From contig PLBP01000003.1 of the NCBI GenBank assembly GCA_003135415.1, positions 35,436 to 99,435 on the forward strand: 64,000 bases of DNA, written 5' to 3'. The notes under the pieces were generated by a model that did no database searches, had not been told where the DNA came from, and saw nothing but the letters and a program-made list of their open reading frames with translations. A program made the translations under genes and the position numbers. This stretch comes from Hyphomicrobiales bacterium. Its GTDB lineage: Bacteria > Pseudomonadota > Alphaproteobacteria > Rhizobiales > Xanthobacteraceae. Positions 1 through 35,525 of the stretch are shown here, one piece after another. Numbering within the stretch: position 1 is the stretch's first letter; the number at the start of each line of letters is the position of its first letter.

Positions 1-2
1 GC

Positions 3-1817
3 GTGATGCCGCAGACGATCGAGCATCTCTCGATCGTCGACCTCCTCGGGATTACATGCGGCGTCGTCGCCCTGACGAAGGTGGATCTCGCGGAGCCCTC
101 CCGGCGCGAGAAAGTCGCCAACGATATCCAGCAGTTGCTCGCCACAACGGGTCTTGCGAACGCCGATATCGTTCCGGTTTCGACCGTCACGGGCGAAGGC
201 GTGGATTCGCTCCGCGAATATCTGATGATCGCCGCGCGCGAGCATACGGCGCGCTCGGCCAAGGGCCGGTTTCGGCTCGCGGTCGACCGCTCTTTCACCC
301 TTCCCGGCGCGGGCACCGTCGTAACCGGCACTGTTCTCTCCGGAGCGATATCGAGCGGCGACCGGGTTCTTGTCAGCCCGCCGGGTCTCCCCGCGCGCGT
401 GCGCTCGATCCACGCGCAGAACCGCCCGGCCGGCAGGGGAGTGGCGGGACAACGCTGCGCGCTCAATTTGACGGGCGAAAGCATCGCCAAGGATTCGATC
501 GCGCGCGGCAACGTTGTGCTTGCCCCCGAACTGCACGCGCCGGCCGACCGGATCGATGCACGATTGAAAGTGCTCGCGCGCGAGCCGAAAGCGCTCACGC
601 AGTGGATGCCGGTTCGATTGCATCACGCGGCTGTCGAAGTGGGTGCGCGGATCGTGCTTCTGCAAGAGCCGATCTCGCCCGGCGGGGAAGGTTTCGCTCA
701 ACTCGTGCTCGATCGTCCGATCGCCGCGGCCACCGGCGATCGCTTTATCATCCGCGACACCTCGGCGCAGCGGACGATCGGCGGTGGCCGCTTCCTTGAT
801 CTCCGCGCGCCCGTGCGCAAGCGCCGAGTGCCCGAGCGGATTGCGCAACTCGAAGCGCATGCAATGGCCGGTCCCGGCGAGGCGCTAGAGGCGCTGCTCG
901 GGCGTCCGCCGTTTTATGCCAACCTTTCGGCCTTCGCGTGCGATCGCGTGCTGTCGCCCGAAGAAGTCGAGGAGATTGCCGAAAGAATCGGCTTGATCCG
1001 CGTTCCGGTGCGGGATTTTATACTGGCGTTTTTGCCGGCCGCCTTCATGCGCTTGAAGCGCGGATTAATGACGGCGCTCGAAAAGTTTCATGGAGAAAAT
1101 CCGGATCTACCTGGCATCGGGCTCGAGCGGTTGCGCCTGCAGTTGGAGCCGCGCGTGCCGGCACCGGCATTTTCAGCGATTCTGCAAGGACTTGCGAAGC
1201 AGGGCGAGGTCGCACTCGACGGCGCCTGGATCCGGCTGCCGAAGCATGAGGTGAAACTCACGCCCGCCGACGAAAAAACCTGGGGGCGGGCTCGTACGCT
1301 ACTTTCCGGCACTGAACGCTTTCGCCCGCCGCGGACGCGCGACCTTGCCGGCATCTTGAGCGTGGCGGAGCCGGAGGTGCGGCGCCTTTTGAAGCTCGTC
1401 GGACGCATCGGCAGGGTCGACGAGATCGCGCACGATCATTTCTTTTTGCGCGGCACGGTCGGCGAAATGGTCGATGTTATGATCGATCTCGCGTCGAAAA
1501 TCGAAGGCGAAGAATTCAGCGCCGCCCAGTTTCGCGACCGCGTCGATAACGGCCGCAAGGTCGCGATTCAGATTCTCGAATTCTTCGATCGTCACGGCGT
1601 GACCATTCGGCGCGGCGATTTGCGGCGTCTCAACAAGCATCGGCTGGATTTGTTTCGCCAGCCGGCGATCGGAACGCCGCCCGCGGAGACATCGAATTCC
1701 GGAAGGGAAGCGCCCCCGGTGGGGCGTCCGGACTTCAAATCCGGGAAGGGCCGCGAGTCGGTTCTTGGTGGGTTCGACTCCCATTCTCTTCCGCCATCTT
1801 CCAGGAGCGCACGATGA
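3..1817 (+). CDS. selB: Selenocysteine-specific elongation factor SelB (5' end outside window)
   Basis: SelB is the GTPase that carries Sec-tRNA to UGA codons marked by a SECIS element. The first visible residues (VMPQTIEHL, then ALTKVD as the G4 element) fall in the middle of the GTP-binding domain, so roughly the first 80 residues, including the P-loop, lie upstream. EF-Tu-like beta-barrel domains follow (for example GAGTVVTGTV), then the helical C-terminal winged-helix repeats that bind SECIS RNA, ending near the RLDLFRQP stretch. There is no stop codon where the family usually ends. The frame stays open through the whole tRNA-Sec gene (1701-1796) and stops at TGA 1815-1817, adding about 40 non-homologous residues. 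That TGA overlaps the ATG of the next gene (ATGA). Family assignment is firm; whether the tail is made as protein is unknown. Confidence 0.95.
   Translation: MMPQTIEHLSIVDLLGITCGVVALTKVDLAEPSRREKVANDIQQLLATTGLANADIVPVSTVTGEGVDSLREYLMIAAREHTARSAKGRFRLAVDRSFTLPGAGTVVTGTVLSGAISSGDRVLVSPPGLPARVRSIHAQNRPAGRGVAGQRCALNLTGESIAKDSIARGNVVLAPELHAPADRIDARLKVLAREPKALTQWMPVRLHHAAVEVGARIVLLQEPISPGGEGFAQLVLDRPIAAATGDRFIIRDTSAQRTIGGGRFLDLRAPVRKRRVPERIAQLEAHAMAGPGEALEALLGRPPFYANLSAFACDRVLSPEEVEEIAERIGLIRVPVRDFILAFLPAAFMRLKRGLMTALEKFHGENPDLPGIGLERLRLQLEPRVPAPAFSAILQGLAKQGEVALDGAWIRLPKHEVKLTPADEKTWGRARTLLSGTERFRPPRTRDLAGILSVAEPEVRRLLKLVGRIGRVDEIAHDHFFLRGTVGEMVDVMIDLASKIEGEEFSAAQFRDRVDNGRKVAIQILEFFDRHGVTIRRGDLRRLNKHRLDLFRQPAIGTPPAETSNSGREAPPVGRPDFKSGKGRESVLGGFDSHSLPPSSRSAR
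1701..1796 (+). tRNA. selC: tRNA-Sec (anticodon UCA)
   Basis: A 96-nt selenocysteine tRNA with encoded CCA (1794-1796). The acceptor stem pairs 1701-1708 (GGAAGGGA) with 1785-1792 (TCTCTTCC), with one G-U pair and discriminator G1793. The D arm is a GCCCC/GGGGC helix. The anticodon stem CCGGA/TCCGG encloses loop CTTCAAA, with anticodon TCA at 1735-1737. A long variable arm follows, then a T arm with TTCGACT loop. The long extra arm, long acceptor stem and UCA anticodon are diagnostic. The gene lies entirely within the open frame that continues selB on the same strand, so it is probably cut out of the selB transcript. Confidence 0.96.
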
Positions 1818-2281
1818 CGCTGACGACCGCTTCGTTTCTCGACCAGCTGAAGGAGGCTGCGGCAAAGGCAGATGTGGCCGAAGCCGCGTTTCGCCGCGAA
1901 ATCTCCGAGCGCATCAAGAATTTCGAGCACGAGCGCGCCTTCGCCTATCGCCGGCTCAATTTCATGCGAGCGCTGGCCGACGCCACCGCCGCCGCGGAAA
2001 GCGAGGAGATCGCGGTCGCCAATGCGCTTGCGGTCGTGCGGGCGAAGCTGGGCTGGTCGAGCGACAGCGAGGCGCGCACGGACGTGCTCGCGCGTCTCGC
2101 GCCGGTGGCAGCGGCGATGTTCGCGAACCTCGCGCCGCCCGAACCGAAAAAAGACGAGCCGCTGCCCGACATCGGCAAGGCGCTCGCGAATTTCGAGACA
2201 TGGTACGGTGAAACGCACGACGTGCCATTCTGGGTCCTGTTCGAGCACTACATTCCGGAGACGCCGCGTGTCGATTTCTGA
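1814..2281 (+). CDS. Uncharacterised 155-aa protein of the selenium locus
   Basis: Not recognised. The ATG overlaps the TGA that ends the selB frame (ATGA), so translation is probably coupled to selB. The first two thirds are alanine-, glutamate- and arginine-rich and look helical, with charged stretches such as LKEAAAKADVAEAAFRREI. A linker APPEPKKDEPLPDIG then leads to an aromatic C-terminus (FETWYGETHDVPFWVLFEHY). There is no signal peptide, transmembrane segment or cysteine motif. The end overlaps the next gene by 14 bases. Position between selB and a lipoate-ligase-like gene suggests a part in the same process; function is unknown. Confidence 0.75.
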   Translation: MTLTTASFLDQLKEAAAKADVAEAAFRREISERIKNFEHERAFAYRRLNFMRALADATAAAESEEIAVANALAVVRAKLGWSSDSEARTDVLARLAPVAAAMFANLAPPEPKKDEPLPDIGKALANFETWYGETHDVPFWVLFEHYIPETPRVDF

Positions 2282-2666
2282 GACCAAAGCCCCGGCCACC
2301 GATTTCGACCGCTGGGTGGCCGACGAATTCACCGAGACCGGCGCCTTCACCGCGCTTGTCATCCTCGTCCAAATTGTTGAGCCCGCGGTCGTTCCGCTCT
2401 GCTCGACCTATTTCAACGTGATCGGCGACGAGTTCGATTGGGGTGAAATCACCGTGCTGTTCGCGGGCTCGGGGCGTGACTGGAGCGGCGCTTGCTTTTT
2501 TCCGGTTACCGCGACGGATGGCGGCCCGCTCGACAATCCGACCGCGCGGCTCCGACTGCGCGAGCTTGAAAGTCGCGTCGACGAAAACAGGCTCGTGATG
2601 AACGAGGGAAATTTCTTCGACAAATGGGGTCGCCGCCTCCAGATCGAGGAGATGCAGGCGCAATGA
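2268..2666 (+). CDS. Uncharacterised 132-aa protein of the selenium locus
   Basis: Not recognised. A GTG start at 2268 (product begins VSISETKAPATDFDRW) is chosen because it overlaps the end of the preceding gene by 14 bases and opens the frame with protein-like sequence; the same frame further upstream is only a shadow of the previous gene. The protein is acidic, with a hydrophobic segment around ALVILVQIVEPAVVPL (too polar-flanked to call membrane) and aromatic residues in the second half (WGEITVLFAGSGRDWSG, NFFDKWGRRL). The stop overlaps the ATG of the next gene (ATGA), so four genes in a row are tightly packed. Function is unknown. Confidence 0.75.
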   Translation: MSISETKAPATDFDRWVADEFTETGAFTALVILVQIVEPAVVPLCSTYFNVIGDEFDWGEITVLFAGSGRDWSGACFFPVTATDGGPLDNPTARLRLRELESRVDENRLVMNEGNFFDKWGRRLQIEEMQAQ

Positions 2667-3460
2667 GCGTACTTCGCGTCATCGATACCGGGTTGCGGCC
2701 GCCACGCTGGAACATCGCCATGACCGCGGCGCTGGCGGAACTGCACGGCGCGGGCGAAATTCCCGATACGCTTCGCTTTCAGCGCTTCCAGCCTTGCGTG
2801 CTCGCCGGACGCAATCAGGACATTCGCCGCGAAGTCCGCCTCGATCGCTGCCGGCAAAAGGGCGTCGCGACTGCCCGGCGCGTGACCGGCGGCGGCGCCG
2901 TATATATGGATGCGGGCATTCTTTCCTGGGAGATCGTCGCCGGAAGACGACGCTTCGGGGCGGATTTGGCCGAGGCCGCGGAAAAAATTTGTACCGCGGT
3001 CGCCGATGGCGTTGCCGCTCTCGGTGTACCGGCGCGTTTCTGCCCGCCCAACGCCATCGAAGCCGAAGGTCGCAAGATCAGTGGCGCCAGCGGCTATTTC
3101 GAGGGCGCGACCCTTGTCTACGAAGGCACGGTGCTCGTCGATTTTGATCCTCGCGACATGGCCGAAGTCCTCCGCCTGCCGGATGCGAAAGAAGGAGCCG
3201 CGCTCGCGCATCGCGTGACAAGTATCGCCGCGATCCTGGGGCGCGCGCCGGCCGTCGGCGAGGTTCAGCGCGCTCTCATCGCAAGTATCTCGGATTGCTT
3301 CGATCTTCGCATCACAAGCGAAGCGCCTTTGGATCGCGAGCTGGCGCTCGCCGAAAGACTCCACGCCGTGGAATTCGGCACCGATCGGTTCGTGCTGGGG
3401 GAGGAGCCGCAAGAGATTTCTCGCGAGCCCTCCGGCGATGCGGCCAGGCTGCCCGCATGA
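2663..3460 (+). CDS. Lipoate-protein ligase A family enzyme (LplA/LipB/BPL fold)
   Basis: A 265-aa enzyme of the biotin/lipoate ligase fold, expected to attach lipoate or octanoate to a lipoyl domain. Seen motifs: RRVTGGGAVYMD (residues 72-83), matching the family loop RRxxGGGxVxHD but with M in place of the usual H; and NAIEAEGRKISGAS (130-143), whose lysine (K138) matches the substrate-binding lysine of LplA. The small C-terminal accessory domain of E. coli LplA is not obvious. ATG overlaps the preceding stop by four bases, and the end overlaps the DsrE-like gene by four. A GcvH-like protein two genes downstream is its likely client. The family is clear; substrate and partner are inferred from context. 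Confidence 0.85.
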   Translation: MSVLRVIDTGLRPPRWNIAMTAALAELHGAGEIPDTLRFQRFQPCVLAGRNQDIRREVRLDRCRQKGVATARRVTGGGAVYMDAGILSWEIVAGRRRFGADLAEAAEKICTAVADGVAALGVPARFCPPNAIEAEGRKISGASGYFEGATLVYEGTVLVDFDPRDMAEVLRLPDAKEGAALAHRVTSIAAILGRAPAVGEVQRALIASISDCFDLRITSEAPLDRELALAERLHAVEFGTDRFVLGEEPQEISREPSGDAARLPA

Positions 3461-3834
3461 GCAAGCGGCTCCTCATCGTTCTCGTCAACACCGATCCGAA
3501 GAACGCCGAGGAACTCGGCGCGCCGTTTTATCACGCAGCGGTCGCCGCGGCGATGGATTACGAAGTCGATGTCGTCTGCACCGCGACCGCGGGCAAGCTC
3601 ATGATCAAGGGCGTCGCCGATAAAATCCACACCAAGCCCGGCAATCCGAAAACCGTCTATGACTGGATCAAGGAAGCGCATAACCAAGGCGCGCGGCTGT
3701 GGGCCTGCCCGGCCAATCTCGAGCTGTTCGAAATTTCCGAGAGCGATCTCATCCCCGAATGCAAGGGCATGATGGGAACGGCGACGATGATCCAGGACAT
3801 CATGGACGGCGAATGCCGCGTCCTGACTTATTGA
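3457..3834 (+). CDS. DsrE/DsrF-like sulfurtransferase family protein
   Basis: A 125-aa protein with the DsrE-like fold: an N-terminal beta strand (KRLLIVLVNTD), a helix-rich middle and a C-terminal ACPANLELFEI segment whose C84 is in the place of the sulfur-carrying cysteine of DsrE-type proteins. Other cysteines are C41, C102 and C120. Such proteins bind persulfide sulfur and pass it between partners in the cytoplasm. ATG at 3457 overlaps the ligase stop. Sitting between selB and selD with lipoyl-type genes, it could handle sulfur or perhaps selenium at the selenide level; this is inference. The family is well supported. Confidence 0.85.
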   Translation: MSKRLLIVLVNTDPKNAEELGAPFYHAAVAAAMDYEVDVVCTATAGKLMIKGVADKIHTKPGNPKTVYDWIKEAHNQGARLWACPANLELFEISESDLIPECKGMMGTATMIQDIMDGECRVLTY

Positions 3835-3841
3835 GGGTATC

Positions 3842-4282
3842 GTGGCACGCGTGCAGGACCAGGAATATCCGGACCACCTGTTTTACGATGTCGAGAATCA
3901 AATCTGGTACGAAGCGCTTCCCGGTGGAAAAATCCGCGCCGGCATGACGCCGATCGCGGCTTCGCTCGCCGGCGAGGTGCTCGTCTTCACGCCGAAGCGG
4001 CTCGGGCGCGACTTCGAAAAAGGCCGCTCCTTCGCCACCATCGAGTGCGGAAAATGGGTCGGCTCGGCGCGCGCCGCCTTCGCAGGCGTCGTCGAGGCGC
4101 AGAACGAAGCGCTGATGAAAAAGCCCGAACTACTGAACGAAGACGCCTTCGGCAAGGGCTGGATGCTTATCGTGCGCTCTTTGCACGACGACTGGCGCAC
4201 GGGCCTCGTAACCGGCGCCGCGATCGGGCCTGCCTTCGGCGAGTGGATTGCATCAGAAACCTACAAAGACCGGTCGGAGTAA
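3842..4282 (+). CDS. GcvH-like lipoyl carrier protein
   Basis: A 146-aa protein related to glycine-cleavage H protein. The core runs from AGMTPIAASLAGEVLVF to NEALMKKPELLNEDAFGKGW, which matches the GcvH signature around the lipoyl hairpin and the PELVNEDPYGEGW region. The lipoyl lysine is K71 in IECGKWVGSAR; canonical GcvH has ESVKA here, so the hairpin is divergent but the lysine is kept. No gcvT or gcvP is in the window, which argues against a glycine-cleavage role. It resembles the lipoyl-binding carriers (LbpA type) that work with sHdr sulfur-oxidation complexes, also found with dedicated lipoate ligases. The GTG start is supported by GAGGG a few bases upstream. Convergent with selD, 7 bases apart. 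Confidence 0.85.
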   Translation: MARVQDQEYPDHLFYDVENQIWYEALPGGKIRAGMTPIAASLAGEVLVFTPKRLGRDFEKGRSFATIECGKWVGSARAAFAGVVEAQNEALMKKPELLNEDAFGKGWMLIVRSLHDDWRTGLVTGAAIGPAFGEWIASETYKDRSE

Positions 4283-4289
4283 GGAGCGG

Positions 4290-5339
4290 CTAAACGGAGA
4301 CGCGAATGCCGGGCGTTCCGGCTTCGGCGTGGCCGATGATATGTGCCGACGGATTGCCCGCGTCGACGATCCGCTGCAACAGCACCTTCGCCTCGCTCGC
4401 CTCGCAGGCGACGAGCAAGCCGCCGGAAGTTTGCGGATCGGTGAGAAGCGCGCGCTGCCAGTCCGGCAGATCTTTCGGCAAAGCGACGGCGTCATCGTAG
4501 CTCGACCAGTTCCGCCCGGAAGCGCCGGTGATGAATCCTCGCCGGGCGAGGCGTTCCGCCTCCTTCAGCAACGGTAGGTCCGGTAGCCGGAGGACGAGCG
4601 AAAGCTTCGATCCCCGCGCCATCTCCAGCGCATGGCCGAGCAAGCCGAAACCCGTCACGTCGGTCACGGCGTGCACGGCCGGATCGTCGGCGAGCGTGGT
4701 GCCAACCTTGTTCAGAAGCGTGGTCGAAGCGATCATCTCGGCATAGCCGTCACCGCCAAGCTCGCCTTTCTTGAGTGCTGCCGAATAAATTCCGACGCCG
4801 ATCGCCTTAGTGAGAATCAGCGCGTCGCCGGCCCGCATGGTGCGGTTTCGCCGCACCTGCTCGGGGCGGCAAACGCCGATCACCGCGAGCCCGTAAATCG
4901 GCTCGGGCGCATCGATCGAATGGCCGCCCGCCACCGGGATTCCGGCCGCAGCACAAACCGCGGCACCGCCTTTCAGAATCTCGCGCACCACCTCGATCGG
5001 AACCTTGTCGAGCGGCATGCCGAGGATCGCGAGCGCCATGATCGGCTTCGCGCCCATGGCATAGATATCGGAAATCGCGTTGGTGGCCGCGATGCGGCCG
5101 AAATCGTGCGGATCGTCGACCACCGGCATGAAGAAATCGGTGGTGGCGACGATGCAGGTCTTGTCGTCGAGTTGCCACACCGCCGCGTCGTCGCCGGTCT
5201 CGGTGCCGACCAGAAGCTCTCGGTAGGGCGCGGCCGCGGGATGGCCGGCGAGAAGCTCTTGCAAGACCGAGGGCGCGAGCTTGCATCCGCAGCCGCCGCC
5301 ATGGGCAAGGCTCGTGAGCCGCACGATGGGTGCATTCAT
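4290..5339 (-). CDS. selD: Selenide, water dikinase
   Basis: SelD makes selenophosphate from selenide and ATP, the selenium donor for Sec-tRNA synthesis. The 349-aa length is typical. The catalytic segment GGGCGCK (residues 14-20) contains Cys17 and Lys20, equivalent to the E. coli active-site residues; this is a Cys rather than a Sec form. Family motifs include [37 protein letters not shown] and [10 protein letters not shown]. It faces the GcvH-like gene convergently, so it has its own promoter, presumably in the roughly 160 bases between it and the IclR gene. Confidence is high. Confidence 0.97.
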
Positions 5340-35346: not shown

Positions 35347-35525
35347 GGGCGCGTCCCGCGATCATCATTGAAACTGATGAATTAGATTAGAAACATTCGT
35401 TTCACTCATCAATCGAAATAACGCAAACAAGCGCTGTCTCGAATTTCAATGATTTCGGATTGTACGCGGCTTTCCGTGCGCGAACAGCGGCGTTCTCGCT
35501 TCCGAAACCGACGATGGAGAAGGCC
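35347..35525. promoter_or_regulatory. Divergent control region, LysR gene / DUF1127 gene
   Basis: An AT-rich stretch holding nested inverted repeats: GAAAC (35390-35394) with GTTTC (35399-35403), and outside these TGATGA (35375-35380) with TCATCA (35406-35411). The arrangement is suitable for a LysR-type dimer or tetramer controlling its own gene and the DUF1127 gene. Binding is inferred from position only. Confidence 0.45.

Follow-up and report, generated by a model that had tools for sequence, protein, structure and literature searches.

The selB gene on contig PLBP01000003.1 of a Hyphomicrobiales bacterium contains the whole gene for tRNA-Sec (selC), and comparison of the sequences of such nested loci indicates that the phase in which the selB frame meets the tRNA is fixed, that no stop intervenes within the tRNA, and that the frame ends just beyond the CCA. 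The nested layout has already been published (Mukai, 2021, PMC8124441), and the locus in the window (the 64,000-nucleotide stretch analyzed here, positions 35,436–99,435 of the contig) is an instance of this known arrangement; the new element is a quantitative test of frame preservation through the tRNA. The reading preferred here, which we consider probable, is that translation through the tRNA has been selected while the amino acids of the resulting tail are incidental, the stop lying just past the CCA, where restart is possible.

The nested locus and its selenium gene cluster

The plus-strand frame read from position 3 of the window has no stop until TGA 1815–1817 and was identified as the 3′ part of selB (3–1817; TIGR00475, 259.5 bits against a cut-off of 242.25), the start of which lies upstream of the window and is visible in the fetched locus L038. 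The Rfam model RF01852 placed tRNA-Sec at 1701–1792 (79.0 bits, E 1.3e-14), and ARAGORN reported a tRNA-SeC with anticodon TCA at 1700–1796; as GCCA continues the sequence past the Rfam match, selC was assigned to 1701–1796 on the plus strand, a gene of 96 nt with an encoded CCA that is read by selB in frame 0. A preliminary description made from the letters of the DNA had stated that selC lies wholly inside the open selB frame and that the selB stop is shared with the next start, and both statements were confirmed, the TGA overlapping the ATG at 1814 (ATGA, 1814–1817). The SelB-wing_3 match covers residues 503–543 of the selB frame of the window, and selC begins at codon 567, the last SelB domain match having ended 23 residues earlier. 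A linker of 15 codons (1656–1700, plus strand) leads from the end of the conserved SelB sequence (..DLF) to the tRNA. The tRNA is followed by a trailer of 21 nt (1797–1817, plus strand), in which a Shine–Dalgarno-like AGGAG is found within the 17 nt that separate the CCA from the ATG. The selC-encoded extension opens with Gly (GGA), its tRNA part closes with Pro from the CCA, and the tail from tRNA start to stop comprises 38 residues. Two N's with a short flanking repeat are present inside selB just before the window start (window 1–10, L038 4998–5008); these are probably an assembly join and not biology, and the frame is open across them.

The next gene, ORF1 (1814–2281, plus strand, 155 aa), overlaps at its end with ORF2 (2268–2666, plus strand, 132 aa), and neither has a Pfam or NCBIfam match; the names are those of Mukai, the choice of which gene receives which name having been made in this analysis. 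Structural modeling predicted a long helical hairpin for ORF1 and an α/β fold for ORF2, with mean pLDDT values of 89.0 and 91.9 for the two models. Neither model had a Foldseek match at E 0.001 or better, and a second structural comparison of ORF2 gave Z of at most 4.2. Searches against PDB sequences at E up to 1 returned no match for ORF2 and one, at E = 1, for ORF1, while searches of Pfam gave no consistent family for either, only scattered weak matches below E 0.1 in at most 6 of 38 members per family. ORF1 was found near nested selBC in 62/106 loci and ORF2 in 51/106. Lipoate-protein-ligase-like, DsrE-like, and GcvH-like genes occupy 2663–4282 and are followed by selD on the opposite strand (4290–5339, minus strand). 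Upstream on the contig are genes for formate dehydrogenase β and γ subunits, FdhE, and SelA, each above its NCBIfam cut-off, together with a Sel1-like gene read by eye; these are preceded by a run of 1060 codons that was read by eye as fdoG and is interrupted in frame by only one TGA, in a context like that of formate dehydrogenase. The presence of fdoG with one in-frame TGA in the same cluster suggests that selenocysteine is presumably in use.

The window shares with the systems described by Mukai a whole sense-strand 96-nt tRNA-Sec in the selB frame, read from GGA to CCA, as well as a selB stop overlapping the next ORF, the fdoGHI-selAB(D) cluster, and ORF1/ORF2. That study reported the nested layout in diverse Alphaproteobacteria, with stop/start overlap in many members though not all, as the first such case in bacteria (PMC8124441); the window locus is unnamed in its text, and counts of phase, codon position, and stop position are absent from the text. 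The layout is restated in passages of a 2022 review (PMC9312934) and a 2026 review (PMC13188914), and no experimental follow-up was found in the part of the open-access literature on selB, tRNA-Sec, and nested tRNA genes that was searched. A full tRNA within a same-strand protein frame is also represented by tRNA-Lys inside cox1 of a crustacean mitochondrion, as cited in PMC8124441, although the genome there is a compact mitochondrial one and the genes are different. Autoregulation of SelB in E. coli is likewise cited there. Control of the amount of SelB is a theme that the switch proposed for the nested loci would share with E. coli. To our knowledge, the E. coli SelB system has no nested tRNA.

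Phase of the selB frame at the tRNA

tRNA-Sec genes were sought in 61 genomes including that of the window and in 397 genomes of the order, 385 of the class, and 398 of the phylum, the samples overlapping. Matches under 55 bits in the 61-genome set were left out, being judged tRNA-Ser-like cross-matches, and the tRNA-Sec places G879 and G1122 (genus of G1048) were left out of the phylum survey. The 139 loci collected were all called tRNA-SeC by ARAGORN (139/139); selB ran through selC in 19, stopped inside it in 2, and stopped before it in 58 (55 near, 3 far), and the remaining 60, with no selB directly upstream, yield no phase. Within the 61-genome set, a clear tRNA-Sec was present in 15 genomes and selB lay directly upstream in 12, namely the window and 11 relatives of the same family; the frame entered the tRNA in all 12, running through in 11 and stopping inside in 1, and hence the overlap in the window is not a matter of chance. 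Further sampling of one nested genus (tRNA-Sec in 13 of 22 genomes) added 11 new loci, all of which run through.

In these tRNA-based surveys, selB enters selC in 32 loci and does so in the same frame in 32/32, i.e., phase 0 in 21/21 entering loci of the relatives, order, class, and phylum surveys and in 11/11 of the genus sample. The 58 loci in which selB stops before selC were distributed over the three phases as 19, 19, and 20. In 17 of the 21 entered tRNAs none of the three frames contains a stop, so that stops in the tRNA do not dictate the phase there. This bears on the processing switch proposed by Mukai and likewise set out in the preliminary description, in which folding and cutting of the tRNA destroy the selB message, so that SelB and tRNA-Sec are alternative products and their ratio is kept steady. 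It draws strength from the intact, conserved tRNA with encoded CCA lying inside a selB frame without an earlier stop, and from the published argument that surplus SelB sequesters Sec-tRNA-Sec (PMC8124441). Taken alone, however, it predicts no fixed phase, as any phase would yield a nonstop message where the tRNA is open in all frames, and we regard it as rather doubtful. The entered tRNAs are 96 nt long in 21/21 loci, compared with 38/58 where selB stops earlier, and Mukai noted that the frame may be easier to maintain with a tRNA length of 96 or 93 (PMC8124441).

On a quick SelB tree, a single 31-row clade (SH-aLRT 100) takes in every one of the 19 nested loci from the 139-locus set, the other rows being 11 loci that stop before selC and 1 that stops inside. 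Phase 0 was found in 20/20 entering loci of this clade and in 3/11 of those stopping before (Fisher p 2e-5, a value that ignores relatedness). The nested label changed 7 times on the quick tree (shuffled mean 17.2), and well-supported branches force only 2 of these changes; the pattern fits, but does not prove, one origin of nesting followed by several later losses. As 11 of the 31 rows lack the overlap, it is not essential, which also weighs against the processing switch. The preliminary description had taken relatives with a stop just before selC as a possible sign that the overlap reflects a recent chance loss of that stop; such relatives do exist, in these 11 rows, but they look like separate losses inside the nested clade. 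That the overlap arose once and merely persists without function agrees with the confinement of the nested loci to one clade (19/19) and with tail residues that look unconstrained (see below); a fixed phase over 12 linker lengths in the tRNA-found loci is unexpected without constraint, and the phases have drifted where the stop precedes selC, unlike those of entering loci, making such neutral inheritance very unlikely in our judgment. In L077 and L018, selB stops inside selC at the identical place, +46 to +48, the position that Mukai reported for Dyella and Luteibacter (PMC8124441). On the quick tree, L077 is not part of the nested clade, and the partial overlap may therefore have arisen separately.

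With a query containing the tail, a contig scan yielded at least 516 relatives, of which the best 80, all named nested loci, were kept; they include Pseudorhodoplanes, Pseudolabrys, Azorhizobium, Xanthobacter, Microvirga, Mesorhizobium, Phyllobacterium, Bosea, and Inquilinus. Of these 80, a Pseudorhodoplanes MAG is nearest to the SelB end of the window (77%), which suggests the family Xanthobacteraceae. After removal of 4 of 110 loci as identical around the tRNA, the pooled set consisted of 106 distinct nested loci, of which the tRNA alone had identified 30 (the tRNA-found loci) and the tail query 76. The query includes the in-frame tail, and the 76 loci found with it thus cannot test the frame; the nested loci are, moreover, related, and their counts overstate the independent events. 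Nested selBC near the alphaproteobacterial ones was also seen in L210 (titled Mycobacterium sp. KBS0706) and L231 (a Terriglobia MAG), and this closeness suggests that their labels or bins may be wrong. S. terangae carries the full nested selB-selC form. The SelB of S. meliloti pSymA has a C-terminal extension from the tRNA frame as in the window, shortened in agreement with the remnant described by Mukai, but the tRNA is truncated there and intact in the window; no tRNA-Sec was found within the 9.7-kb stretch examined. Retention of a tail and a tRNA remnant in that stretch is a further point against the processing switch.

Constraints on the linker, the tail, and the stop

The linkers of the 106 nested loci have 23 different lengths between 7 and 38 codons, and those of the 30 tRNA-found loci have 12, one length accounting for 15/30. 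Linker length differs within 21 of 43 sister pairs, in each case by whole codons; only 6 of the 43 pairs are wholly tRNA-found and 1 of these 6 differs, so this whole-codon finding depends largely on the query. In frames 0, +1, and +2, the 106 linkers contain 0, 27, and 63 stops, the zero being conditional on the class and carrying no weight. The chance of all linkers being open was about 0.004 for the family (the locus stopping inside the tRNA being left out) and 0.01 for the genus, both sets having been taken without that condition and relatedness being ignored.

Substitutions at the first, second, and third codon positions were counted in the 22 of 43 sister pairs with equal linker length (22 pairs also for the trailers). 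The SelB body showed 121/70/551, and the corresponding counts were 61/64/66 in the linker, 52/46/48 in the tRNA, and 31/25/35 in the trailer. The absence of codon-position bias in linker, tRNA, and trailer indicates that the amino acids of the tail appear unconstrained, while the frame is kept. The tail as a conserved protein module was rejected on this ground. A functional extension of SelB would account for the shorter extension that S. meliloti has retained with only part of the tRNA left, but the lack of codon-position bias makes it highly improbable.

The position of the stop was compared among the three frames, the trailers being measured as if all tRNAs were 96 nt (two nested tRNAs are 95 nt by ARAGORN). 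A first stop within 39 nt after the tRNA was present in frame 0 in 27 of the 30 tRNA-found loci, as against 4 for frame +1 and 3 for frame +2. A locus was counted as coupled when the selB stop overlaps the start of a next ORF of at least 90 aa, and 59/106 loci were coupled, 57 of the 59 with an ORF1 or ORF2 homologue downstream; selB thus ends on the start codon of an ORF1/ORF2-region gene in about half of the nested loci. These figures speak for a second alternative, in which the sole reason for keeping selB open through selC is to bring ribosomes to the start of ORF1/ORF2, where they reinitiate. The remaining 47/106 loci are uncoupled, and restart on a following gene cannot account for their open frame. 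Frame 0 nevertheless stops within 39 nt in 45/47 of these uncoupled loci and in 57/59 coupled ones (102/106 overall), compared with 11/47 and 4/59 for frame +1 and 7/47 and 4/59 for frame +2. The tRNA-found subset gives the same picture, the 18 loci without a coupled gene having such stops in 16, 2, and 2 cases for frames 0, +1, and +2. As frame 0 stops promptly in uncoupled loci too, coupling to the ORF1/ORF2 region is not the sole reason for the open frame. A core Shine–Dalgarno site lies between tRNA and start in 39/59 coupled loci, so that independent starts are possible; restart as the only cause is a real possibility, though one against which we lean. With a median leader of 20 nt and the Shine–Dalgarno site in 39/59, the processed downstream message would not always be leaderless, contrary to PMC8124441.

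The P-site codon of the terminating ribosome was most commonly situated 15 nt past the tRNA end (33/106). We suggest that the footprint of a ribosome would leave a P-site at this distance just clear of the tRNA. The selB stop is TAG or TAA in 17/106 nested loci, and Sec recoding of this stop as a conserved feature was rejected for that reason; the preliminary description had remarked that the stop is also the Sec codon, but a meaning in this was not supported, since TGA follows from the ATGA overlap.

Proposed translation and processing of one RNA

To judge from the layout, selB, tRNA-Sec, and the genes that follow are probably transcribed together on one RNA. The preliminary description had held that a separate selC promoter with no read-through would remove the coupling between SelB and tRNA-Sec, and no such promoter was detected by a sigma-70-like scan of 1200–2300, though 0 sites found against 0.1 expected is weak evidence. 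The 60 nt upstream of the tRNA in the 106 loci contain no strongly conserved block, the top column reaching 0.55 bits; positions −1 and −2 before the tRNA have about 0.5 bits (T in 66/106, A in 56/106). A promoter of its own for selC was rejected on these two results, other promoter types remaining possible.

Under the preferred reading, ribosomes on the unprocessed RNA would read through the tRNA, halt just beyond it, and be able to restart on the next gene, while RNase P and 3′ processing would free the tRNA either once the last ribosome has passed or by competing with translation. If cutting came first, the selB message would be left without a stop and its product would pass to ribosome rescue; the 38-residue tail would be a by-product of the need to read the selB frame. 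The fixed phase means that through-translation of the unprocessed RNA probably matters, and the conserved tRNA points to processing. The hypothesis put forward by Mukai was that tRNA processing yields a nonstop selB message, setting processing against translation (PMC8124441), and the preliminary description had gone further in making tRNA maturation and full selB translation exclude each other on one RNA molecule. The coupling itself is plausible, is published, and agrees with a frame preserved through the tRNA, but strict mutual exclusion is overstated, as ribosomes could finish selB before the same RNA is cut, and translation and processing may be compatible. Homeostasis of the ratio of SelB to tRNA-Sec is a possible effect. 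More speculatively, and in our estimate unlikely in this specific form, passing ribosomes might hold the tRNA unfolded and uncut until SelB is made and stop clear of the CCA, whereupon the tRNA would mature; such a translate-first timer would tie each tRNA-Sec to prior SelB synthesis and make through-translation itself the selected trait.

The phase result gives the hypothesis of 2021 specific mutational predictions. If the frame is kept because ribosomes must cross the tRNA, the competition of the ribosome and RNase P on one RNA would govern the use of selenocysteine in many bacteria of soil and roots.
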